This document shows positions 1,657 to 15,748 of a stretch of 20,606 bases of DNA, in pieces; the first letter of the stretch is position 1, and every line of letters begins with the position of its first letter. Under the pieces are notes generated by a model. It had not been told where the DNA came from and searched no databases. It worked only from the letters and a program-made list of their open reading frames with translations. Location: the IMG/VR virus record IMGVR_UViG_3300027895_000011, positions 1 through 20,606 of that record. One strand, 5' to 3'. A program made the translations under genes and the position numbers. This DNA is from a virus.

Positions 1657-1793
1657 AGCCAAAACTATACAAGCGGTTTGGAAGATGGAATATGCGCGAG
1701 GGCGACAAAATCACAACCATCTGGTCTGACTGGGTTGGCGAAATTACCATTGCCAACGCGATCGACTACTTCCGCAGTAAAGCGAATGCATGA
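1653..1793 (+). CDS. 46-aa hypothetical protein between the terminase genes
   Basis: A short frame starts at ATG 1653 (ATGA overlap with the small terminase stop) and ends at TGA 1791-1793, itself an ATGA overlap with the large terminase start. The product starts MKPKLYKRFGRW and ends DYFRSKANA; it is basic and contains five tryptophans or tyrosines in its first half. Exact 4-nt overlaps on both sides strongly support translation and suggest it couples expression of the two terminase genes. No family was recognised. Confidence 0.6.
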   Translation: MKPKLYKRFGRWNMREGDKITTIWSDWVGEITIANAIDYFRSKANA

Positions 1794-3247
1794 AGGGTGG
1801 CCTTGCTGCTGAGGAATTAGAACTCGCCACTGACATTGGCAGCTTCAGCTTTGACCCTCCAGGGCTAGTTCGATATGCATTCCCCTGGGGATCTGACAGG
1901 CTAAAGACTCCCGGCCCGCGTTCATGGCAGGCAGACATTCTTGGGGAGATTCAGGATCACCTGTCCAACCCTGATACGCGCTTTCAGCCGTTGCAGATTG
2001 CGGTAGCTTCCGGCCATGGTATTGGTAAGTCTGCGCTGATCTCCATGATTATGGCGTGGGCCATGAGCACCTGTGAGGATTGCAAGGTTGTCGCAACAGC
2101 AGGCACAGGGTCGCAGCTCAACACAAAGACGGTGCCAGAGGTGCAGAAATGGTTCCGGCTGGCGCTGAACTCGCACTGGTGGGACATCAATGCCACCTCA
2201 ATACGAGTCAAAGACCCTAATCACCAGGCTCTTTGGCGCACGGACTTTGTTACGTGGTCGGTGCAGAAGACAGAAGCATTCGCCGGTCTGCACAATCAGG
2301 GAAAGCGCATCGTCATCATCTTCGATGAGGCAAGCTCGATCGATGACATCATTTGGGAAGTTGCAGAAGGCATTCTCTCAGATGAAGACACGGAGATTAT
2401 CTGGATCGCGTTTGGTAATCCCACGCGCAATACAGGCGAGTTTTACAGGGCTATCACTGGTGCGAATCGTTGGAAGACGCGGCAGATTGATTCGCGCACG
2501 GTAGAGGGCACGAACAAGACTCTGCTGGATGCTCAAATCAAAGAGTGGGGTGAGGACAGTGACCGTGCGAGGGTACGTATACGGGGTGAGTTCCCGCGTG
2601 GTGGTTCTACTCAGTTTATTTCTGGTGAGGTTGTTGCTGCTGCCCGCAAGCGCATTGTTGATGGCTATAAGGCGATGCCCGTCATCCTTGGGGTTGACGT
2701 AGCGCGGTTTGGAGACGACCGATCTATCATCTGCCGTAGGCAAGGGCGCAAGGCTGATTTCATCGGCAAGTTCTACGGGATCGACACCCAGAATCTAGGC
2801 GGCAAGGTGCAGGAGATGATTGACCGTGAGCGGCCGGACGCGGTTGTGATCGATGGTGATGGCATTGGCGGTGCAGTGTTCGACTTTCTGAAGGCCAGAG
2901 GTTACGACCGCAAGACCGCAATGGTTGAGTTCCATGGTGGCGGTACACCGACCGACCCGCACAAGTATCTGAACCGCAGGGCTGAAATCTGGGGAGAGAT
3001 GCGGGACTGGCTAGAAGGCGGGCAGATACCCGACGAGGCAGAGATCGAGACAGACCTTACCGGCCCGGATTATGGGTATCACCCCACAAAGGGTTGCTTG
3101 GCTCTGGAGACGAAGGACGATATGAAGTCTCGCGGCGTCGATTCTCCTGACTTGGGGGATGCGCTGGCAATGACATTCGCTGTGAAAGTTGCACCACCTA
3201 AGCCAAAGCAGCAGGGACCGAAGCCGACGCATTCGGCATGGAGTTGA
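1790..3247 (+). CDS. terL: Terminase large subunit (ATPase/nuclease packaging motor)
   Basis: The 485-aa protein has the two-domain layout of TerL. The N-terminal ATPase shows a Walker A at residues 75-81 (GHGIGKS) and a Walker B at 174-180 (IVIIFDE), with a coupling-like GNPTRNTG at 209-216. The C-terminal RNase H-fold nuclease shows GVDVARFGDD at 301-310 (Asp303), AVVIDGDG at 351-358 (Asp355) and a third acidic site in SPDLGDALAM (Asp454 or Asp457). TerL drives ATP-dependent translocation of the genome into proheads through the portal and cuts concatemers. Length is normal. The start overlaps the upstream stop (ATGA). A headful-type strategy is suggested only by the P22-like neighbours. Confidence 0.95.
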   Translation: MKGGLAAEELELATDIGSFSFDPPGLVRYAFPWGSDRLKTPGPRSWQADILGEIQDHLSNPDTRFQPLQIAVASGHGIGKSALISMIMAWAMSTCEDCKVVATAGTGSQLNTKTVPEVQKWFRLALNSHWWDINATSIRVKDPNHQALWRTDFVTWSVQKTEAFAGLHNQGKRIVIIFDEASSIDDIIWEVAEGILSDEDTEIIWIAFGNPTRNTGEFYRAITGANRWKTRQIDSRTVEGTNKTLLDAQIKEWGEDSDRARVRIRGEFPRGGSTQFISGEVVAAARKRIVDGYKAMPVILGVDVARFGDDRSIICRRQGRKADFIGKFYGIDTQNLGGKVQEMIDRERPDAVVIDGDGIGGAVFDFLKARGYDRKTAMVEFHGGGTPTDPHKYLNRRAEIWGEMRDWLEGGQIPDEAEIETDLTGPDYGYHPTKGCLALETKDDMKSRGVDSPDLGDALAMTFAVKVAPPKPKQQGPKPTHSAWS

Positions 3248-4071: not shown

Positions 4072-6216
4072 ATGCCTGATAAAGACTCCGACCTCGGAAC
4101 CGGCAATGGCAAGCTGCTCAAGAAGATCCGCCAGCGGTATGCATACGCCATGGATAAGTGGCGATACAACCGCGAAGAGGGCCAGAAGAACATGCGGTAC
4201 GTGTCTGGCGATCCTTGGAGCGAAGAGGACAAGCAGGCGCGTAAAGGGCGTCCTACGGTATGCCCTGATGAACTGAATCAGTACGTTAATCAGGTCGTCA
4301 ATACAGCCCGTCAGAATCCCCGCGGCATCAAGATAGATCCAGCCGGCGATGAAGCGACAGAGAAGCTTGCCGAGTACCGCGAGAATCGCATTCGGGCTAT
4401 CGAATATGCCTGCAATGCTTCCCAGGTGTACGTCAACGGGCTGCAAGGCGCGGTAGAGCGCAACATCGGCTACTGGAAGGTAAGCCGCACGTATGTTTCT
4501 GATGATTCAGACGAGCAGGAAATCATCGTTCTTCCGGTGCAGAACCCAGACACAGTTCTGATCGACCCCGACTATAAGGAGCTTGACGGCTCGGATATGA
4601 AATGGTCGTTCGAATTCGAGCGCATTCCACTGGAAGAGTTCGAAAGCGAGTATCCAGATGCTGAAAAGCGGAGTTTCTCAGCCGATGATTTTGGTGATGA
4701 TGCTGGTTATTGGTTCGATGGTAAGGCTATCGTTGTGGCCGTTTACTCCGAAGTTCAGATGTCGGAGAAAAAGGTAGGCAAGAGCCAACGATCGGTGTTC
4801 CGGCGATCTTCGGTGAAGCAGTACAAGACCAACGGCGTAGAGATTCTTGCAAAGTCAGAGCAGCCTGGTCCTTACCTGCCAATCGTTCCGGTATTCGGCA
4901 AAGAATTATGGGTTGACCGCGGAGAAAGCGGTGGCGGAAGTTCGGCGCAACGCATTCTAAACTCTCTTGTATCGCTTGCGCGTGACCCGCAGAAGGCGTT
5001 GGCGTATGTGATGAGCGCCATGCTGGAGAATTGCGGCCAGCTTCCGAAGTCATCCTATGTCGGAGCAGTTGGGCAGTTCGAGACCGACAAGGATGCATGG
5101 GATACGCTGAACTCGATCTATCACCCGTATCTGCAGTACGACATGATTGTTGATGCGGCAAACTCCCCGCTTCCTCCCCCGCAGAGACTTCAGGCGGCAC
5201 CTGACTTCCAGGCTTATAGTGTGGGCACGGACATCTGCCGGCGAGCGATTCAAGCCGCAATGGGTATCAGCCCTCTGCCGACTGCTGCGCAGCGCCAGAA
5301 TCAGAAGTCCGGCACAGCGCTGACCAAGATTCAGTCGGAGCAGGCGGTTGGAAGCTACCACTTGGTGGACAGCTACGACCGGGCAATCAAGCTTACCGGC
5401 AGAATCATGAATCACTGGCTTTCTGAGACCGACCTTGGCGAGACAACTCGACCAGTACGTGAAGCAGACGGCAAGCACAAGCTGGTGAAGATCAACACGG
5501 ATGCGGCGGTGGTCGAAGATGACCATGAATACCACTTCCCGATTGCAGACGATAAGGGCCGCTATCAGGTAACAATCAGTTCCGGTCCCTCGCATGAGTC
5601 GCAGCGCGAAGAGGGCAGCGAGTTTGTTGACACGCTGATGCAGAATTTGCCAAACATGGCTTTCCTGTCTCCGCAGCAGCATGCGCAAATCATCGCTCTC
5701 GGCATAAAGTTGAAGCAGCTTGGCCCTCTTGGCGATCAGATGGCCGAGATTATCAGCCCGCAGAACAATGGAGCGCAGCAGCAGTTGGCGCAGATCCAGC
5801 AGCAAGCGGCGCAACAGCACCAGCAGATGCAGGAGATGCAGGCTACCCTCCAGAAGCTCATGCTCGAGCGTCAGGGCAAGGTGATTGAGATGCAGGGCAA
5901 GGCGCAGGCACAGGCCTTGCAGCATCAATTCGACATGTCCGAGGCCGATAAGGACCGCGAAGTCAAGCTGGCTGTGGCCGAGATCGGCACCAAGGCGCAG
6001 ATTCAGACCGAGCGCGAAGGCATGGTGCATGATCTGGAATCGCAATTCCATGATCAGGCTCATGATGTCGCAATGGCTACTGTGCAGCATGGCCAAGCGC
6101 AGCAGCTACAAGAGCAGCAGGCGGCTACGCAGTCGGCACAGAGCGCACAGGACGCGCAGCAAGGCCAAGACGCACAAGTAACACAAGCCGCGTTGCAGCC
6201 ATCACCCACAGAATAA
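4072..6216 (+). CDS. P22-type portal protein
   Basis: The 714-aa protein closely matches the length of the P22 portal (725 aa) and carries typical features. It has an N-terminal helical region with KNMRYVSGDPW and CPDELNQYVNQVVN (around residues 40-95), a clip/stem region with VQNPDTVLIDPDYKELDGSD, and a long C-terminal helix. The portal forms the dodecameric ring at one capsid vertex through which DNA is packaged and to which the tail attaches. From about residue 565 the C-terminus is extremely Gln/Ala-rich and helical, ending in low-complexity QSAQDAQQGQDAQ, which resembles a long barrel or tail extension. It starts directly after the previous TAG. Its first 24 nt resemble the start of the gene at 419. 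Confidence 0.92.
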   Translation: MPDKDSDLGTGNGKLLKKIRQRYAYAMDKWRYNREEGQKNMRYVSGDPWSEEDKQARKGRPTVCPDELNQYVNQVVNTARQNPRGIKIDPAGDEATEKLAEYRENRIRAIEYACNASQVYVNGLQGAVERNIGYWKVSRTYVSDDSDEQEIIVLPVQNPDTVLIDPDYKELDGSDMKWSFEFERIPLEEFESEYPDAEKRSFSADDFGDDAGYWFDGKAIVVAVYSEVQMSEKKVGKSQRSVFRRSSVKQYKTNGVEILAKSEQPGPYLPIVPVFGKELWVDRGESGGGSSAQRILNSLVSLARDPQKALAYVMSAMLENCGQLPKSSYVGAVGQFETDKDAWDTLNSIYHPYLQYDMIVDAANSPLPPPQRLQAAPDFQAYSVGTDICRRAIQAAMGISPLPTAAQRQNQKSGTALTKIQSEQAVGSYHLVDSYDRAIKLTGRIMNHWLSETDLGETTRPVREADGKHKLVKINTDAAVVEDDHEYHFPIADDKGRYQVTISSGPSHESQREEGSEFVDTLMQNLPNMAFLSPQQHAQIIALGIKLKQLGPLGDQMAEIISPQNNGAQQQLAQIQQQAAQQHQQMQEMQATLQKLMLERQGKVIEMQGKAQAQALQHQFDMSEADKDREVKLAVAEIGTKAQIQTEREGMVHDLESQFHDQAHDVAMATVQHGQAQQLQEQQAATQSAQSAQDAQQGQDAQVTQAALQPSPTE

Positions 6217-7419: not shown

Positions 7420-8658
7420 ATGGCAAATAATTTCCTCAACACGCAATGGGTTGCGTTGAAAGTCCTTCGTCTGCTGCTGAACAAGCTGGTAGTTGCGGAG
7501 TACTTCAATCGCTCGTGGGAAAAAGAGTTCCAGAAGGAGTTTGCTCCTGGTTCTCAGGTTTCCGTCAAGTTTCCGCAGCGCTTCACTGTCAATGACGGCA
7601 TGGGCTATGCGCCGCAGGATATCAACCGCTTGCAGACCCCGGTTAATCTCGACCAGTGGATGCAGGTTTCGTTCGAGTGGGATGACTACGAGAATGCTGT
7701 AAAACTGGAGCGCTCGGAGGAAGAACTTGAAGAGCAGTACTTCGAGCCCGCCGCCGCCGCTCTTGCGCAGGAGTGCGACTCTCGTTGCGCTCTGTGGGCC
7801 TCTCAGAATGCCAGCATGACTGTTGGCGCTTTGGGAACCGATCCAACCTCGGTGGCTACCTACTACACGGCACGTCAGCGCCTTGAAGAGAATGCCGCTG
7901 GCGTCCTTGGCAAGCGGGCGATGCTGATTTCCTCGAGCATGATGACGACCTTGGGAACTAACATCACCACGATCTTCCACCCCGCCGACGAAATCACGAA
8001 GGCATGGAAAGAAGGCGTGATCGGTGAACTCGGCGCGTCGATGTTCTATGAATCGCAGTCGCTATACTCGCACACTGCCGGAACATGGGCGGCGGCGGTT
8101 ACGGTAAACGGGGCGAACCAGAGCGGAACCTCGCTGACGGTTAACTTCACGGCTGGCGACACGGTTACGGTAGGAGACAAGTTCTCCATTGCCAACGTGA
8201 ACCTTGTCAACCCCATGACCCGGCGCATTCCCGGCAAGGCCGTGAACAAGGTCTTCACCATCACCCAGGCACTTACGGCGGTTGGCGGTGGCGCGGATGT
8301 GATCAACTTCCTGCCTCCGATCTACGGCCCCGGTTCGCAGTATCAGAACGTAGATTCACTGCCAGCTAATGCGGCAGCTTTCACGCTCTGGCCTGGAACC
8401 ACTAACCCCAACGGTGCGGTCGGTACGATCGGTCTCAACCTCACCCGCCAAGCCTTTGCCCTCGTCGGAGCCAAGCTATATGTGCCGAAGGCGGTAGAAG
8501 AGAGCGGAACGGCGCAAGATCCTGATACCGGTCTCTCGGTGCGCAAGGTCAAGGCATGGGATCCTGTGCGATCGGTGCAGGTCAACCGCATGGACTCTCT
8601 CTTCGGTCTGGGCAATCTCTATCAAGACAATGGCGCTGTTTGCGTCGTGGGAGCATAA
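7420..8658 (+). CDS. P22-type major capsid (coat) protein
   Basis: The 412-aa protein is near the P22 coat length (430 aa) and has the same architecture. An N-terminal region (SVKFPQRFTVNDG, then an ELEEQYFEPAAAALAQECD helix) is followed by a HK97-fold core. An inserted beta domain lies around residues 230-290, including the signature-like TAGDTVTVGDKFSIANVN and KAVNKVFTIT, which matches the position of the P22 I-domain. It makes the icosahedral shell. It starts directly after the scaffold TAA with GGAG at 7411-7414. Confidence in the fold is high; the closest named relative cannot be given without a search. Confidence 0.9.
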   Translation: MANNFLNTQWVALKVLRLLLNKLVVAEYFNRSWEKEFQKEFAPGSQVSVKFPQRFTVNDGMGYAPQDINRLQTPVNLDQWMQVSFEWDDYENAVKLERSEEELEEQYFEPAAAALAQECDSRCALWASQNASMTVGALGTDPTSVATYYTARQRLEENAAGVLGKRAMLISSSMMTTLGTNITTIFHPADEITKAWKEGVIGELGASMFYESQSLYSHTAGTWAAAVTVNGANQSGTSLTVNFTAGDTVTVGDKFSIANVNLVNPMTRRIPGKAVNKVFTITQALTAVGGGADVINFLPPIYGPGSQYQNVDSLPANAAAFTLWPGTTNPNGAVGTIGLNLTRQAFALVGAKLYVPKAVEESGTAQDPDTGLSVRKVKAWDPVRSVQVNRMDSLFGLGNLYQDNGAVCVVGA

Positions 8659-10196: not shown

Positions 10197-10958
10197 GTGA
10201 CTGCGAACAGCATAACCGTAACTGCTCTCTCGCTCATCAATGCCTCCGCGCAGGAAATCGGCGCATTGGCAGCGGGGGAGCAGTTGTCGAACGATGACCT
10301 TGCATGGGTACTGCAAAAACTCCAGCGGGTTATCGACAACTTCAATGCGAAGCGGACGATGGTGTACGCGAACACCTTCACCGCATTCACGCTGGTGGCC
10401 AACCTAACGCCGCACACCATTGGTCCGACTAGTACTTTTGTGGTCAATCAGCGCCCAGTTGAAATCCCCTCTATCGGCCTAGTGCTTAACAATACGACTC
10501 CGGACACGGTAGAAATCCCCTTGACGCCGCGGGATAAGGACTGGTGGGCAGCTCAGCGCGTCAAGAACATCACATCTTCAGTCCCAACCGACTTTTATTA
10601 TGAGCCGGACTGGCCGAATGGATCTATCTACTTCTGGCCAGTACCAAACGCAGTCAACAATGTGCTGATCCAGCAGCGGACGGTCATCGGAGAGATTACG
10701 ACCCCCGCTCAGACTTTCTCCATGCCTCCAGGCTATTGGGATGCCATCATTTACACGCTTTCTATAGCAATTTCACCGTCTTTTGAGCGACAGGTGAGCC
10801 CCGATTTACGCCAGCTGCAGATGGAATCTGTTCGCGCAGTGCAGAGCAATAACATCAAGTCGCCAAAGGCTGACACCGGAGATAACGGCATGCCGGGAGT
10901 CGGCGGACGAGGCGGATTCAATTATGTTTCAGCACAACCGGGCAGCGGTACTCGATAA
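10197..10958 (+). CDS. P22 gp4-like head-tail adaptor (tail accessory factor)
   Basis: The 253-aa protein starts at GTG 10197 directly after the previous TAA. Its first 60 residues form paired helices (SITVTALSLINASAQEIGAL, then LSNDDLAWVLQKLQRVIDNF). They are followed by a beta domain with FTLVANLTPHTIGP, RPVEIPSIGLVLN, YYEPDWPNGSIYFWPVP and PPGYWDAIIYTLSIAI. This helix pair, TIG, YY..P and WPVP order matches phage head-completion adaptors such as P22 gp4. These bind below the portal, close the packaged head and dock the tail. It is longer than P22 gp4 (166 aa) and ends in a Gly-rich tail (GMPGVGGRGGFNY). Position just before the gp10-like gene supports the call. Confidence 0.78.
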   Translation: MTANSITVTALSLINASAQEIGALAAGEQLSNDDLAWVLQKLQRVIDNFNAKRTMVYANTFTAFTLVANLTPHTIGPTSTFVVNQRPVEIPSIGLVLNNTTPDTVEIPLTPRDKDWWAAQRVKNITSSVPTDFYYEPDWPNGSIYFWPVPNAVNNVLIQQRTVIGEITTPAQTFSMPPGYWDAIIYTLSIAISPSFERQVSPDLRQLQMESVRAVQSNNIKSPKADTGDNGMPGVGGRGGFNYVSAQPGSGTR

Positions 10959-13337
10959 GTGAGGATCGGATTTGTCGGTCCTTCGTATACGGCGCGATCG
11001 ACCGCGGTAGCAGACGAAGAGTGCATCAACTTCTTTGCGCAGTCGGTGGAGTCGCAGGCTGCGATTGTCCCAAGCAAGCCCTATGGCGGTCAGTCGGCGG
11101 CTGGACTCAAGGCTTACTTTTGGACACCGGGGTTATCGGTATTCTCCGCGTTTCCAGGTAGCCCAGTGCGCGGTCAGTGCTGGACAGGCAGCCGTCTCTT
11201 TGTGGTCGCAGGCGACACGCTCTACGAGGTTACGAGCACTGGAGCGCAGACGGCCATAGGAGTTGTGGGGAGCGATGGAAAACCCGCTTCCCTTTCATTC
11301 AACCAGATTCAATTGTTTGTGGTATCCGCTGGGCAGGCGTTCTGCTATACGCTTTCCGTGCAGGCTTGGGCAGCAAATACCGTGTTCGCCGTCGGCGCAC
11401 TGATTCTTGACGGCGCGGGGCATATCCAGAAGGCTACGGCTGCAGTTTGGACGCCGAACACGCATTTTGCGGTGGGCGCGGAGATTGTTGACGGCAACGG
11501 CAACGTGCAGAAGGCTGCACAGGCGGGTTGGGCAGCCAATACGGTATTCGCCTTAGGTGCAGAGATAGTTGATCCGCAGGGCCACGTTCAGAAGGCACAG
11601 GGAGCAGGATGGTTAGCGAATACCGATTTCACTCTGGGCGCAGAGATTATTGACCCTAACGGCAACGTGCAGAAGGCCTTTGCCTTTGGATGGTCAGCGA
11701 ACATCGTATTTGCTCTCGGATTCGAGATTGTTGACAGCAATGGAAATGTTCAGAAAGTAACGACGGCAGGAACCTCTGGCGCGACTGTTCCCGTCTGGAA
11801 TACCTCAGGAACGACCGCAGATAACACCGTGGTATGGACCTTCCAGGCGAGCGCCGCAGGTAGCGCGGGAACCTCGGGAGCGAGTGAGCCGGTATTTAGT
11901 ACGAATGGAGCCACGGTGGACGGAACCGGAACGCTATTCTGGGTATTTCAAGCCAGTGCGGCCGGGAAGGCTGGCACCTCGGGAGCCGCGCTCCCATTAT
12001 TCAATGAATTCGGCGGATTCACCCCGGACGGAACCGGAACGCTGGTGTGGTTGGATCAAGGCGTGGCCGTAGGTGCTGGAACTTCAGGTACGACGGTGCC
12101 AGTCTTCGGCACCGCAACGATAGTGGACTCTGGCACACTGGTATGGATCTTCCAGGGAGCCTCAAACGGCAATGCAGGCACTTCAGGCGCAGCCGAGCCC
12201 GCCTTCAATGACGCAGGCGGTAACACGCCGGACGGCACAGGTACGCTCGTCTGGGTAGATCGAGGGCTGCAACTGCTGAATGTCACTTCGCAGTTTACCG
12301 GTACGCCGCTGAAGGTCGATTTCTCGGACAGCTTCTTTATCGTGATGTTCTCCAACAGCAACAAATTCCAGATGTCGCAGGTATTGGACGGAACGACATG
12401 GCCAGGACAACTCGTAAACGAGGTCGAAGTCTTCGCAGAGAACATCCGGTCTCTCATCGTGAATCATCGCGAGCCGTGGATTTTCGGAAGTCTTCGCGCA
12501 CAGCCGTATCAGGACACCGGGAGCGCGGAGGTTTTCGATGTAATCCCCGGCACTCTGATTGAAAAAGGCTGCGCGGCGACGTTCGTTCCGTGCCGATTGG
12601 ATAATTCGATCTTCTGGGTAGATCAGGACGAGCGCGGTGGGTTGTCGGCCTGGCGCTCGAACGGATATACCCCTGTGAGAGTTTCGACCTATGCGGTTGA
12701 GACTGACCTCGGCACGAACTCTCAAGCGAATATTCAAGCCATGACGTCTTACGCCTACGTGGACGCCGGGCATATTTTCTGGGTGCTGTACGTCCCCAGC
12801 TCAAGCTGGTCATGGGTCTTTGACGTAGTGGAAGGCCTATGGCACAAGCGAGCATCATGGAACCCGCAGACTGCAACATTTGGGCCGCATTTTAGCTGGA
12901 ACCACTCGTATGCGTTCGGCATGCACCTGGTAGGCGACTGGAATTCTGGAAACCTATACCAGATGAGCATGGCAAATTTTCAAGACAATGGCTCCAATAT
13001 CCAGCGCGTCCGACGGACTCCTACCATCTTGAACGAGAATGAACGGATTTACCACGCTGAAATCATGGTGGACTTCGACATAGGGTTGGGCCCTCAGCCT
13101 CCCTTGCTTGACGGAAATGGAAACCCCCGGCCACCTCAAGCAATTCTTCGGTGGAGCAATGACCGAGGTAAAACATGGTCCAATCAGCATGTTCAGGGAT
13201 GCGGTTTTGCTGGGCAGTACTTGGCGCGGGCTATCTGGCGACGATTGGGACAGTCTCGCCACAGGGTCTATGAATTGAGGGTTTCTGATGCAATACCTTG
13301 GATCATCGTGGATGCTTATTTGAAGGTGGGGTCATGA
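10959..13337 (+). CDS. P22 gp10-like tail/DNA-stabilisation protein with inserted tandem repeats
   Basis: The 792-aa protein starts at GTG 10959 after the adaptor TAA. Residues 1-136 show the gp10-type opening (INFFAQSVESQAA, TPGLSVFSAFPGSPVRG, LFVVAGDTLYEVT). Residues about 440-792 continue as a beta-rich propeller-like domain (WPGQLVNEVEVFAENIRSL, AWRSNGYTPVRVST, WVFDVVEGLWHKRASW). Between them lie five 27-aa repeats (137-271) and five 33-35-aa GTSG repeats (271-436). Removing this 300-aa insert leaves about 492 aa, close to P22 gp10 (472 aa), which forms the tail hub beneath gp4 and blocks DNA leakage. The insert resembles carbohydrate-binding-like modules. It ends with an ATGA overlap. 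Confidence 0.82.
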   Translation: MRIGFVGPSYTARSTAVADEECINFFAQSVESQAAIVPSKPYGGQSAAGLKAYFWTPGLSVFSAFPGSPVRGQCWTGSRLFVVAGDTLYEVTSTGAQTAIGVVGSDGKPASLSFNQIQLFVVSAGQAFCYTLSVQAWAANTVFAVGALILDGAGHIQKATAAVWTPNTHFAVGAEIVDGNGNVQKAAQAGWAANTVFALGAEIVDPQGHVQKAQGAGWLANTDFTLGAEIIDPNGNVQKAFAFGWSANIVFALGFEIVDSNGNVQKVTTAGTSGATVPVWNTSGTTADNTVVWTFQASAAGSAGTSGASEPVFSTNGATVDGTGTLFWVFQASAAGKAGTSGAALPLFNEFGGFTPDGTGTLVWLDQGVAVGAGTSGTTVPVFGTATIVDSGTLVWIFQGASNGNAGTSGAAEPAFNDAGGNTPDGTGTLVWVDRGLQLLNVTSQFTGTPLKVDFSDSFFIVMFSNSNKFQMSQVLDGTTWPGQLVNEVEVFAENIRSLIVNHREPWIFGSLRAQPYQDTGSAEVFDVIPGTLIEKGCAATFVPCRLDNSIFWVDQDERGGLSAWRSNGYTPVRVSTYAVETDLGTNSQANIQAMTSYAYVDAGHIFWVLYVPSSSWSWVFDVVEGLWHKRASWNPQTATFGPHFSWNHSYAFGMHLVGDWNSGNLYQMSMANFQDNGSNIQRVRRTPTILNENERIYHAEIMVDFDIGLGPQPPLLDGNGNPRPPQAILRWSNDRGKTWSNQHVQGCGFAGQYLARAIWRRLGQSRHRVYELRVSDAIPWIIVDAYLKVGS
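11367..11771 (+). repeat. Five tandem 81-bp (27-aa) repeats inside the gp10-like gene
   Basis: Codons for a repeat-initial Trp fall at residues 137, 164, 191, 218 and 245, an exact 27-residue period with no indels. The consensus is W-x-x-N-T-x-F-A-L-G-A-E-I-V-D-x-x-G-N-V followed by QKA. The copies differ at many third-codon positions, so the array is old rather than freshly expanded. The W-xxN-xxF-xxG pattern resembles the first half of modules often found in phage tail proteins with a chitin-binding-like flavour. Confidence 0.9.
11769..12266 (+). repeat. Five tandem GTSG-type repeats (33-35 aa) inside the gp10-like gene
   Basis: Units begin with GTSG at residues 271, 304, 339, 374 and 407, with unit lengths 33, 35, 35 and 33 before the last. 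The consensus is GTSG-AA-x-P-x-F, then a Gly-rich stretch, then DGTGTLVW. The last copy leads directly back into the gp10-like fold (LQLLNVTSQFTG). This is the usual second half of the W..NT..GTSG..P..DGTVTW module; here first halves and second halves have been amplified as two separate blocks. Confidence 0.88.
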
Positions 13338-14074
13338 GTTCAAAGCCCATCGTTTCGGTAACAACCCCAACAGGTCCGATTGTCGATCCGCAGAGCGGGC
13401 AGCCTACCTTCGCGTTCACGAAGTGGCTGCAGGGTATCGGAAATACGATCAATCTGGCGTTTACCGCACAGGGAACACTTTCTGGGAATTCAATTCCTAC
13501 CCCCACGGCAGATACATTAGGCGGCGTGACGACTGCCGGACCTGCGACAAGTGAGTGGATCAATCAGATTGACGCGACCGGCACGCCTCATTTGAGTCAG
13601 CCTGCATTTTCGGACATCAGCGGAACCGCGATCGCGGCCCAAGTCCCTGCACTTTCGGCACTGAATGGAAGTGTTACACCCTCGCAGGTGCCTGCTCTAT
13701 CGCAGTTGAACGGAGCCGTAACGCCTGTTCAGGTTCCTCCGCTCTCCTCCCTGTTGGGCGCGGTTACTCCTGTCCAGGTTCCGCCTCTCTCTGATTTGTT
13801 GGGTGCGGTAACCCCGGGACAGGTGCCAGCTCTTTCCGCCTTGAATGGGAGCGTAACCGCGACTCAAGTTCCATTGCTTTCCGCCCTGAGAGGCAGCGTT
13901 ACGGCGGCCCAAGTCCCTGCACTCTCCGCGCTCAGTGGGCAGATTACCGAGGCGCAGCTTCCAGCTGCGGGGATCACGGTCACAATTACTACCGCCAAGC
14001 TGACAACGGCCGGCACAAACGGATCCATGACTTTCACAAACGGAATTTTGACGGGACAGGTACAGGCCACATGA
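13334..14074 (+). CDS. Fibrous tail protein with 15-residue repeats, tail-needle position
   Basis: ATG 13334 is chosen because it overlaps the gp10-like stop (ATGA) behind AAGGTGGGG; an in-frame ATG at 13298 lies inside the previous gene. The 246-aa product has an N-terminal segment with FAFTKWLQGIGNTIN. Eight 15-aa repeats follow at residues 97-216 (consensus G-SVTPxQVPxLSxLx), then a C-terminal cap containing NGSMTFTNGILTGQ. The gene directly follows the gp10-like gene, where P22 encodes its tail needle (gp26, 233 aa) that plugs the tail and penetrates the envelope. A trimeric beta-spiral shaft is inferred from the 15-residue periodicity, which adenovirus fibre also uses. It may be a needle analogue or a short fibre. 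Confidence 0.65.
   Translation: MSSKPIVSVTTPTGPIVDPQSGQPTFAFTKWLQGIGNTINLAFTAQGTLSGNSIPTPTADTLGGVTTAGPATSEWINQIDATGTPHLSQPAFSDISGTAIAAQVPALSALNGSVTPSQVPALSQLNGAVTPVQVPPLSSLLGAVTPVQVPPLSDLLGAVTPGQVPALSALNGSVTATQVPLLSALRGSVTAAQVPALSALSGQITEAQLPAAGITVTITTAKLTTAGTNGSMTFTNGILTGQVQAT
13622..13981 (+). repeat. Eight tandem 45-bp (15-aa) repeats in the fibre gene
   Basis: Repeat-initial Gly residues fall at positions 97, 112, 127, 142, 157, 172, 187 and 202 of the fibre protein. The core QVPALS is kept in six or seven units with conservative change (QVPPLS, QVPLLS), and the last unit is degenerate (QITEAQLPAAG). Nucleotide identity between neighbouring units is high in places (for instance units 3 and 4), which points to recent duplication or slippage within the shaft. 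Confidence 0.92.
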
Positions 14075-14247
14075 TCGATATATGCGCAGTAATTGAACGC
14101 GAAACCGGGCAGAAGGTGACCGAAGATACCCCACTCGATGAGCTCAACGTGGATTCTCTGGAATTCCTCGACCTGCTGATTGTCCTCGGAGTGCCAAATG
14201 ATGGCGAATACCAGACTGTCGGAGATATTGTGAAGGTGACAGCTTGA
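14071..14247 (+). CDS. Minimal acyl carrier protein (58 aa)
   Basis: The 58-aa frame starts at ATG 14071 (ATGA overlap with the fibre gene) and ends at TGA 14245-14247. It contains the phosphopantetheine attachment signature DELNVDSLEFLDLL with Ser29 in the D-S-L context at the start of helix II. A C-terminal YQTVGDIVKV matches helix IV of ACPs (typically TVGDLVDYI). Bacterial ACPs are about 78 aa; this one lacks most of helix I and has a very short helix III region (GVPNDGE). ACPs carry acyl chains on a 4'-phosphopantetheine arm after modification by a host AcpS-type enzyme. The stop overlaps the next gene, a GNAT acyltransferase, which suggests the two act together. Confidence 0.85.
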   Translation: MIDICAVIERETGQKVTEDTPLDELNVDSLEFLDLLIVLGVPNDGEYQTVGDIVKVTA

Positions 14248-14708
14248 TTTCTGTCCAGACAGAGACATGGAAAGCGATCGATGCAGAGATTGAGGAAGTA
14301 GCCGGTTATCATTGGCAGGAGCTTGCCCTCGACAAGCTCTTGTTTCAGCGCGATCTAGACCACGAACGCTACCTGAAGATGGAAGAGCTGGGGATGATGC
14401 ACGTTGTCACCGCCCGCGCCGATGGCAAGTTGGTTGGCTACATCGTCTGTTTCGTGATGCCACATCTGCACTATAAGTCTTCCGGACTCGTGGCTCTTGC
14501 TGACATGTACTTCATCCTCCGCGAGTACCGTAAAGGCGGACTGGGCGTGCGCATGTTTCGTGAGATGGAGCGAGGCCTGAAGCAGCGCAACGTTATTAGA
14601 GCGCACATGAGTTGCAAGGTGCATGAAGACCACACGAAGTTATTTGAGGGAATGGGGTGGACTTTGACCGATCTGACTTTCAGCAAATTGCTGGTGGAGG
14701 GTAAATGA
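14244..14708 (+). CDS. GNAT-family N-acyltransferase
   Basis: The 154-aa frame begins at TTG 14244, overlapping the ACP stop (TTGA) with AAGGTG at 14233-14238; no in-frame ATG is available before residue 45. The GNAT acyl-donor loop is seen as REYRKGGLGVRMFREMER (RxxGxG, near residues 97-114). Strand beta-4 is LVALADMYFILREYR, and the C-terminal segment HEDHTKLFEGMGW matches GNAT motif B. GNATs usually transfer acetyl from acetyl-CoA to an amine, but some members (acyl-homoserine lactone synthases, FeeM-like N-acyl amino acid synthases, HlyC-type protein acylases) use acyl-ACP. The coupled ACP makes an acyl-ACP donor plausible. The substrate is unknown; the fibre protein is one candidate. Confidence 0.85.
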   Translation: MISVQTETWKAIDAEIEEVAGYHWQELALDKLLFQRDLDHERYLKMEELGMMHVVTARADGKLVGYIVCFVMPHLHYKSSGLVALADMYFILREYRKGGLGVRMFREMERGLKQRNVIRAHMSCKVHEDHTKLFEGMGWTLTDLTFSKLLVEGK

Positions 14709-15748
14709 GCGTAACTGGCGGAATCATCGCGGGCGTTGGCCTTGCCGGATCGATTGGGGGAGCTGCGATCAGTTCCAATGCCGCAGGAGACGCCGCCAGC
14801 ACCCAAGCCACTGCCGCCGATCAAGCCGCACAGCTCCAGTACCAGGCATCGCAGAACGCTCTCAACTTTCAAGAGGGCGTCTATGGGCAGACACAAGCCA
14901 ATGAAGCACCATTCCTCGCATCTGGTGAAGCTGGGCAGGCCAACCTTGATTATCTTCTAGGCATAACTCCCCCGACCACTCAAGGCGCGGCGGCGGGTAC
15001 GCCGGGAGCATATACCGGTGCTGGTGTTGGCGTGGGTGGGACTGCCACCAACCCCGCTACGGGAACTACAAACCCCGGAACAAGCCCCACTACAACGGGA
15101 TCTACAAACCTCAGCTCGATGGTAAATCCGAGTCTTGGAAACTTCGGATCACTGTTGCAGGGGTATCAGGGAGGACCATTTGTTGCGCCTACGGCCGCGC
15201 AGGCGCTTGCGGCCCCCGGGGAACAGGCTCAGCTTCAGCTGGGCGAGCAAGCTCTACAGCAATCTGCTGCTGCAAGTGGTAGTTTGCTCACCGGAGGGAC
15301 GGCGGAAGCCATCAATGGCTATGCGCAAAACCTCGCCTCCACTAATTACCAAAACACCTACAACAATGCGTACAACACGTATGCGTCAGGGTACAACCAA
15401 TTTCAGAACCAGCAGACCAATGAATACAACCGGCTGTCCTCGCTAGCTGGCGGTGGACAGGTTGCCGCCAACACGCTTGGAACTCTTGGCTCAAGCGCAT
15501 CAAGCGGAGTGGCCAGCAACCTTACCGGCACGGCGAGCGCAATCGGTCAGCAGCTCAACAATGCGGGGGCGGCCAACGCGTCAGGCATCGTTGGTGCGGC
15601 TAATGCCTACAGCGGGGCGCTGAGCGGCACAGCTGGCAACCTCAGCAATCTTGCCCTATTGAGCTCTCTCGGATCCAACAATCCGAACTCGTCAAACTAT
15701 CAACTTCCGACCGTGCCGACTGCGGGCATGAATATGTATGGGGGCTAA
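14705..15748 (+). CDS. DNA ejection / internal virion protein (P22 gp7/gp14-type region)
   Basis: The 347-aa protein starts at ATG 14705 (ATGA overlap) with a strong GGAGGG at 14696-14701. The N-terminus is a glycine-zipper-like hydrophobic helix (TGGIIAGVGLAGSIGGAA) suited to membrane insertion. A Gln/Ala helical stretch and ANEAPFLASGEAGQANLDYLLG follow. A Gly/Thr-rich low-complexity linker is found around residues 90-135. The core is LQLGEQALQQSAAASGSLLTGG followed by NLASTNYQNTYNNAYNTYASG and NRLSSLAGGGQ. I recognise this core from widespread podoviral ejection or tail-assembly proteins. Such proteins leave the virion to build a conduit across the envelope. The exact P22 counterpart cannot be assigned. 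Confidence 0.72.
   Translation: MSVTGGIIAGVGLAGSIGGAAISSNAAGDAASTQATAADQAAQLQYQASQNALNFQEGVYGQTQANEAPFLASGEAGQANLDYLLGITPPTTQGAAAGTPGAYTGAGVGVGGTATNPATGTTNPGTSPTTTGSTNLSSMVNPSLGNFGSLLQGYQGGPFVAPTAAQALAAPGEQAQLQLGEQALQQSAAASGSLLTGGTAEAINGYAQNLASTNYQNTYNNAYNTYASGYNQFQNQQTNEYNRLSSLAGGGQVAANTLGTLGSSASSGVASNLTGTASAIGQQLNNAGAANASGIVGAANAYSGALSGTAGNLSNLALLSSLGSNNPNSSNYQLPTVPTAGMNMYGG

Follow-up and report, generated by a model that had tools for sequence, protein, structure and literature searches.

We describe a conserved two-gene unit of viruses of soil Acidobacteria, recognized by sequence comparison, in which a gene for a small acyl carrier protein (ACP) directly precedes a gene for a GNAT-fold acyltransferase in the operon encoding the virion. 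The material is the viral contig IMGVR_UViG_3300027895_000011, analyzed over its 20.6 kb (hereinafter, the window). Sequence comparison and modeling establish a predicted ACP fold with a conserved serine, a predicted GNAT fold, the fixed adjacency and shared distribution of the two genes, and their place in the virion operon. Phage ACPs and the podovirus GNAT are each known, while the fixed pair appears to be new; the earlier suggestion of an undescribed system, made from the sequence alone, would thus apply to the pair and not to its components, as the GNAT occurs in many podoviruses.

The window covers the late operon of a short-tailed phage, from the terminase through a DNA-ejection gene, in the order large terminase, portal, scaffold, major head, adaptor-like, Hc3, repeat ORF, ACP, GNAT, and gp7-like gene. 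The features considered here are as follows.

1790–3247, + strand: large terminase (phrog_2)
4072–6216, + strand: portal protein (phrog_156)
7420–8658, + strand: major head protein (phrog_283)
10197–10958, + strand: SU10-type adaptor protein (weak match)
10959–13337, + strand: head closure Hc3-type protein (phrog_578)
13298–14074, + strand: repeat-rich putative fibre/needle gene (the likelier start is the ATG at 13334)
14071–14247, + strand: predicted ACP, 58 aa, phosphopantetheine site D28-S29-L30, Ser codon at 14155–14157
14244–14708, + strand: predicted GNAT-fold acyltransferase, 154 aa, Acetyltransf_1, phrog_1249, TTG start
14529–14546, + strand: RKGGLG, the canonical GNAT Q/RxxGxG/A loop for the CoA pyrophosphate (GNAT residues 96–101)
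14705–15748, + strand: P22 gp7-like DNA-ejection protein (phrog_598), the best candidate target

The reading frames, the 4-nt overlaps, and the motifs NVDSLEF with Ser29, TVGDIV and RxxGxG noted in the sequence-only reading are all present in the window, and the phrog and Pfam assignments of the neighbors bear out the placement of the pair among virion-building genes, in the head-tail/ejection part of the operon. Stop and start codons overlap as ATGA at 14071 (repeat gene and ACP), TTGA at 14244 (ACP and GNAT) and ATGA at 14705 (GNAT and gp7-like gene), and therefore these four genes are probably translationally coupled. The gene upstream of the ACP had been taken for a repeat fibre gene; it is indeed repeat-rich and shares the ATGA overlap, but its identity as a fibre is backed by no Pfam match, and we retain it as a structural-type, putative fibre/needle gene. 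The Hc3-type protein of the window (10959–13337) contains an insertion of several ALGAEIVDPNGNVQKA-type repeats, variable among relatives. At positions 419–922, a match to phrog_1128 (48 bits) carries an enoyl-CoA hydratase-like label that may be wrong, the sequence seeming closer to papain-like, NlpC/P60-type proteins.

Judged by its sequence and predicted structure, the 58-aa frame is a genuine acyl carrier protein. It contains the motif N-V-D-S29-L-E-F, and TVGDIV at residues 49–54. On its own it is marginal, as it scores 18.3 bits against Pfam PP-binding (PF00550), below the gathering score of 20.8; but the same model is matched by 20 of 21 homologues at E ≤ 0.1 (best 5.1e-9), and the family profile retrieves solved ACPs, with Aquifex ACP 2ehs at E 7e-15 and many others below 1e-9, so that the proposed assignment is upheld by the family. 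Longer homologues match many NCBIfam ACP models, every one of them under its strict cut-off. Asp28, Ser29, the presumed site of modification, and Asp52 are invariant across 28 homologues with identity down to 24%, and Leu30 is nearly so. The dN/dS ratios, obtained only for pairs with measurable dS, are 0.07–0.23, indicating purifying selection, and the net charge is about –5 to –13 in all family members. The AlphaFold2 (AF2) model (pLDDT 85) has helices at residues 4–12, 22–25, 29–39 and 50–57, with Ser29 starting helix II, and reproduces the four-helix ACP fold with a shortened helix III region; its best 50 structural alignments are all to ACP or PCP domains (Z 7–8.2, rmsd 1.6–2.1 over 57–58 residues). 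Conservation, dN/dS and fold together rule out a chance open reading frame. A tblastn search of isolated phages with the window ACP yielded no match with E below 1.

The window GNAT scores 34.1 bits against Pfam Acetyltransf_1 (cut-off 20.7) and matches the phrog_1249 acetyltransferase family; its AF2 model (pLDDT 95) aligns with GNATs at Z up to 15.8, which indicates a GNAT fold. The profile scan of the GNAT family used a narrower alignment, A6. Among the matches listed, it is to solved CoA-dependent acetyltransferases that the model comes closest; a RimI ranks first by Foldseek, and several entries are tied by Z. GNAT folds are hard to tell apart by structural match, and HlyC, LuxI and FeeM, absent among the structural matches listed, are not thereby excluded as families.

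Scans with ACP and GNAT queries produced 74 GNAT loci from a single viral scan, plus two from bacterial genomes, and the adjacency of an ACP was scored by profile search of forward frames. In 30 distinct records the GNAT is directly preceded by an ACP; 28 of them are viral contigs, the window included, and two are genomes of Acidobacteriota (Acidicapsa dinghuensis and a MAG). Thus the co-occurrence anticipated from the window alone extends to its relatives. Eight of these ACPs (L042, L043, L047, L051, L052, L056, L057, L061) came from outside the alignment used to build the profile. The ACP stop codon overlaps a GNAT start by exactly 4 nt in 19 of the 30 records. As judged from these comparisons, the recurrence of the adjacency is far beyond chance.

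Outside this set, 56 more distantly related GNAT loci, some of them from known phages, all lack an ACP beside the GNAT, and no ACP was found anywhere in 18 ACP-less records searched whole, the same profile being positive in 8 of 8 ACP-bearing phage records. Mapped onto the GNAT tree, the presence of the ACP requires 3 label changes, compared to 20.8 with shuffled labels; the exceptions are one unlabeled row inside the ACP group, which is the putative L049 relic, and the labeled L058, a long branch. A single gain of the ACP in the GNAT family is thus possible from the tree. Sequence identity among the ACPs rises and falls with that among the GNATs (Mantel r 0.49, 0 of 2000 permutations), a correlation that in part reflects shared descent. 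We also observe two irregular cases. The L028 and L032 GNATs are 94% identical and their ACPs only 60%, as if the ACP had been swapped or evolved much faster. At L021:3872–4459, on the contig shared with L049, an ACP helix-II remnant with DSLE lies in one open frame with the GNAT, and may be a relic because helices I and IV are missing, or else a natural fusion. When 396 Acidobacteriota genomes were searched with the GNAT, only the already known Acidicapsa genome matched, which makes the pair a rarity among sequenced hosts.

Many podoviruses without the ACP carry relatives of the GNAT (phrog_1249) in an equivalent position, mostly between the head/tail closure and internal virion or ejection genes. 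The GNAT precedes internal virion protein B in Lentibacter phage ICBM1, of the Zobellviridae, follows tubular tail B in a Zobellviridae phage, and precedes an internal virion protein in Pseudomonas phage PfAn1, whereas the more distant relative bbp24 of BPP-1 adjoins the terminase. Unlike the window, no ACP is found nearby in 12 such loci of known phages. These GNATs are annotated and their function is unexplained. Kinship with T7 gp13 was rejected, as no profile similarity is seen (hhalign probability 0.4%); no solved structure of T7 gp13 was found in the PDB.

An Asp/Arg beta-hydroxylase-like ORF occupies the slot before the GNAT in at least 38 of the 56 loci without an ACP, many of them metagenomic (36 identified by motif and two by Pfam PF05118). 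The slot thus seems, from these assignments, to hold a modification-related gene in both groups, an ACP or a hydroxylase. Such 2OG oxygenase (PF05118)-like ORFs, e.g., L008:3401–3997 and L010:3378–4004, with about 36 further ones, seem to form with the GNAT a conserved, so far unexplained pair of ejection operons.

In every ACP-linked locus long enough to show it, the gene after the GNAT encodes an ejection-type protein that starts with M-S or M-G and continues into a Gly/Ala/Ile-rich segment, while its equivalent in ACP-less phages mostly starts with MVAAA; since both sets are largely separate branches, this association with the ACP may be due to descent only. As a candidate acceptor, the gp7-like ejection protein probably ranks first, followed by the upstream repeat protein.

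With somewhat less than even confidence, we propose that the GNAT is supplied by acyl-ACP charged by the host and acylates an amine, the probable acceptor being a neighboring virion protein and the ejection protein in the first place. A host phosphopantetheinyl transferase (PPTase) would convert the phage ACP to its holo form via Ser29, and host fatty-acid enzymes would load an acyl group onto it. The translationally coupled GNAT would then transfer the acyl group from the phage ACP to an amine. The acceptor would be a neighboring virion protein, perhaps most likely the gp7-like ejection protein with its membrane-type, Gly/Ala/Ile-rich N-terminus, and its acylation might aid assembly of the channel or insertion into the membrane as the DNA is ejected. 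No PPTase or AMP-ligase was found in eight ACP-bearing phage records of 35–42 kb, while PPTases are present in both host genomes; hence the ACP, if charged at all, would depend on the host for both charging and loading.

The choice of the acyl donor is where the evidence diverges. An acyl-ACP donor has a precedent in HlyC, a GNAT-fold enzyme that acylates a protein from acyl-ACP (PMC8339906). It is disfavored because the window GNAT keeps RxxGxG, while the ACP-dependent ApxIC, like the HlyC/RtxC enzymes, is devoid of CoA-contacting elements (PMC8339906); because the closest listed solved structures are CoA-dependent; and because ACP-linked GNATs show no clear excess of positive charge over the others (mean net charge –0.1 vs. 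–0.8). GNAT relatives in ACP-less phages presumably use acyl-CoA, which also counts against it. Some features do set the ACP-linked GNATs apart: 18 of 26 have a CoA loop shortened by one residue (RxGxG), compared to none of 45 others, the window being among those with RxxGxG; most have S-C-K-V-H-x-D-H at positions 123–130; and residue 42 is K or R in 25 of 26 (Arg42 in the window). These sequence differences follow descent and are leads rather than proof of a changed donor.

Instead of a protein, the GNAT might use acyl-ACP to N-acylate an amino acid, a polyamine or an amino sugar, yielding a small molecule that alters host signaling or the envelope. FeeM-type synthases and LuxI have a GNAT-like fold and use acyl-ACP, FeeM being moreover encoded with an ACP, and polyamine and aminoglycoside acetyltransferases are among the structural neighbors of the window GNAT. 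We nevertheless consider such a product unlikely, as the position of the GNAT before the ejection genes is fixed in nearly all relatives, ACP-less ones included, which points to virion biology, and no further biosynthetic gene is seen beside the pair. The acceptors of FeeM and LuxI are small molecules, and neither family is among the structural or sequence matches listed for the window GNAT.

The ACP might also be non-catalytic, as it is with LYR proteins and MukB, its phosphopantetheine arm stabilizing or regulating the GNAT or the ejection complex, with the GNAT itself perhaps a virion or assembly factor. The location of the GNAT between the tail-tube and internal virion protein genes, the same slot as that of T7 gp13, the shortening of the ACP to 58 aa and the CoA loop retained by the GNAT all agree with this role; yet the GNAT is without detectable sequence kinship to T7 gp13, and its conserved CoA loop and active-site region would argue for catalysis. 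We regard a purely structural or regulatory ACP as rather improbable.

Two further explanations seem very unlikely. The GNAT might use acetyl-CoA with the ACP or its arm being acetylated, as substrate or competitor, which fits the retained CoA loop of the window GNAT; but the GNAT persists in relatives that have no ACP, which makes the ACP an unlikely general substrate of the family. We give equally little credence to an auxiliary metabolic ACP serving host fatty-acid synthesis beside an unrelated GNAT, the way other phage ACPs have been read (PMC11705849, PMC8224337, PMC11924767), as the ACP tracks one GNAT group, always directly upstream, sits in a late structural operon, and has a shortened fold.

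Small ACP genes are likewise present in other phages (Schitoviridae R22Y, Rhodobacteraceae prophages, Erythrobacter phage R6L, P-HM2, jumbo phages), but, unlike the window, no annotated GNAT adjoins the ACP in five records examined, and in three Rhodobacteraceae prophages the ACP is accompanied by fab genes (acpP-fabF-fabG). Phage ACPs have been reported as metabolic genes (PMC11705849, PMC8224337, PMC5463345), and “acyl carrier protein” is listed among the predicted genes of Acidobacteriota vOTUs (PMC11924767). In the open-licence literature, we have not come across any account of an ACP-GNAT pair conserved within a virion operon.

The HlyC/ApxIC acyltransferases depend on the host's own ACP. 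Like the proposed system, these enzymes (RtxC) combine a GNAT-type fold, an acyl-ACP donor and a protein acceptor (PMC8339906), but the window GNAT has no sequence match to HlyC, including no HlyC/RtxC Pfam match at E ≤ 1. If the proposed transfer holds, the pair would work by analogy with HlyC or FeeM, yet without the HlyC sequence and loop features. Fatty acyl groups are added to ribosomal peptides by GNATs of the selidamide, nostolysamide (NpuN) and microvionin pathways (PMC13060382); NpuN, however, consists of tandem GNATs for which use of acyl-CoA has been demonstrated, and the products are peptide natural products, not virions.

Taken further, acylation of a neighboring virion protein might mean that a dedicated carrier-dependent system lipidates the phage's own ejection or needle protein for membrane penetration, the operon slot being a virion-protein modification module; this is conceivable, although we think it doubtful. 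As part of the same joint reading, and with as much reserve, virion lipidation in Acidobacteriota podoviruses would parallel the N-myristoylated capsid proteins of animal viruses. Acidicapsa dinghuensis 4GSKX, a named strain, has a copy in its genome (L042), which makes the pair testable. If the proposal is true, phages would acylate their own particles from a private carrier protein, a virion chemistry that we have not found described in tailed phages, and a GNAT family common in the ejection operons of podoviruses would obtain a function. For at least one group, phage ACPs, now classed as metabolic genes, would then have to be seen as components of a modification system.
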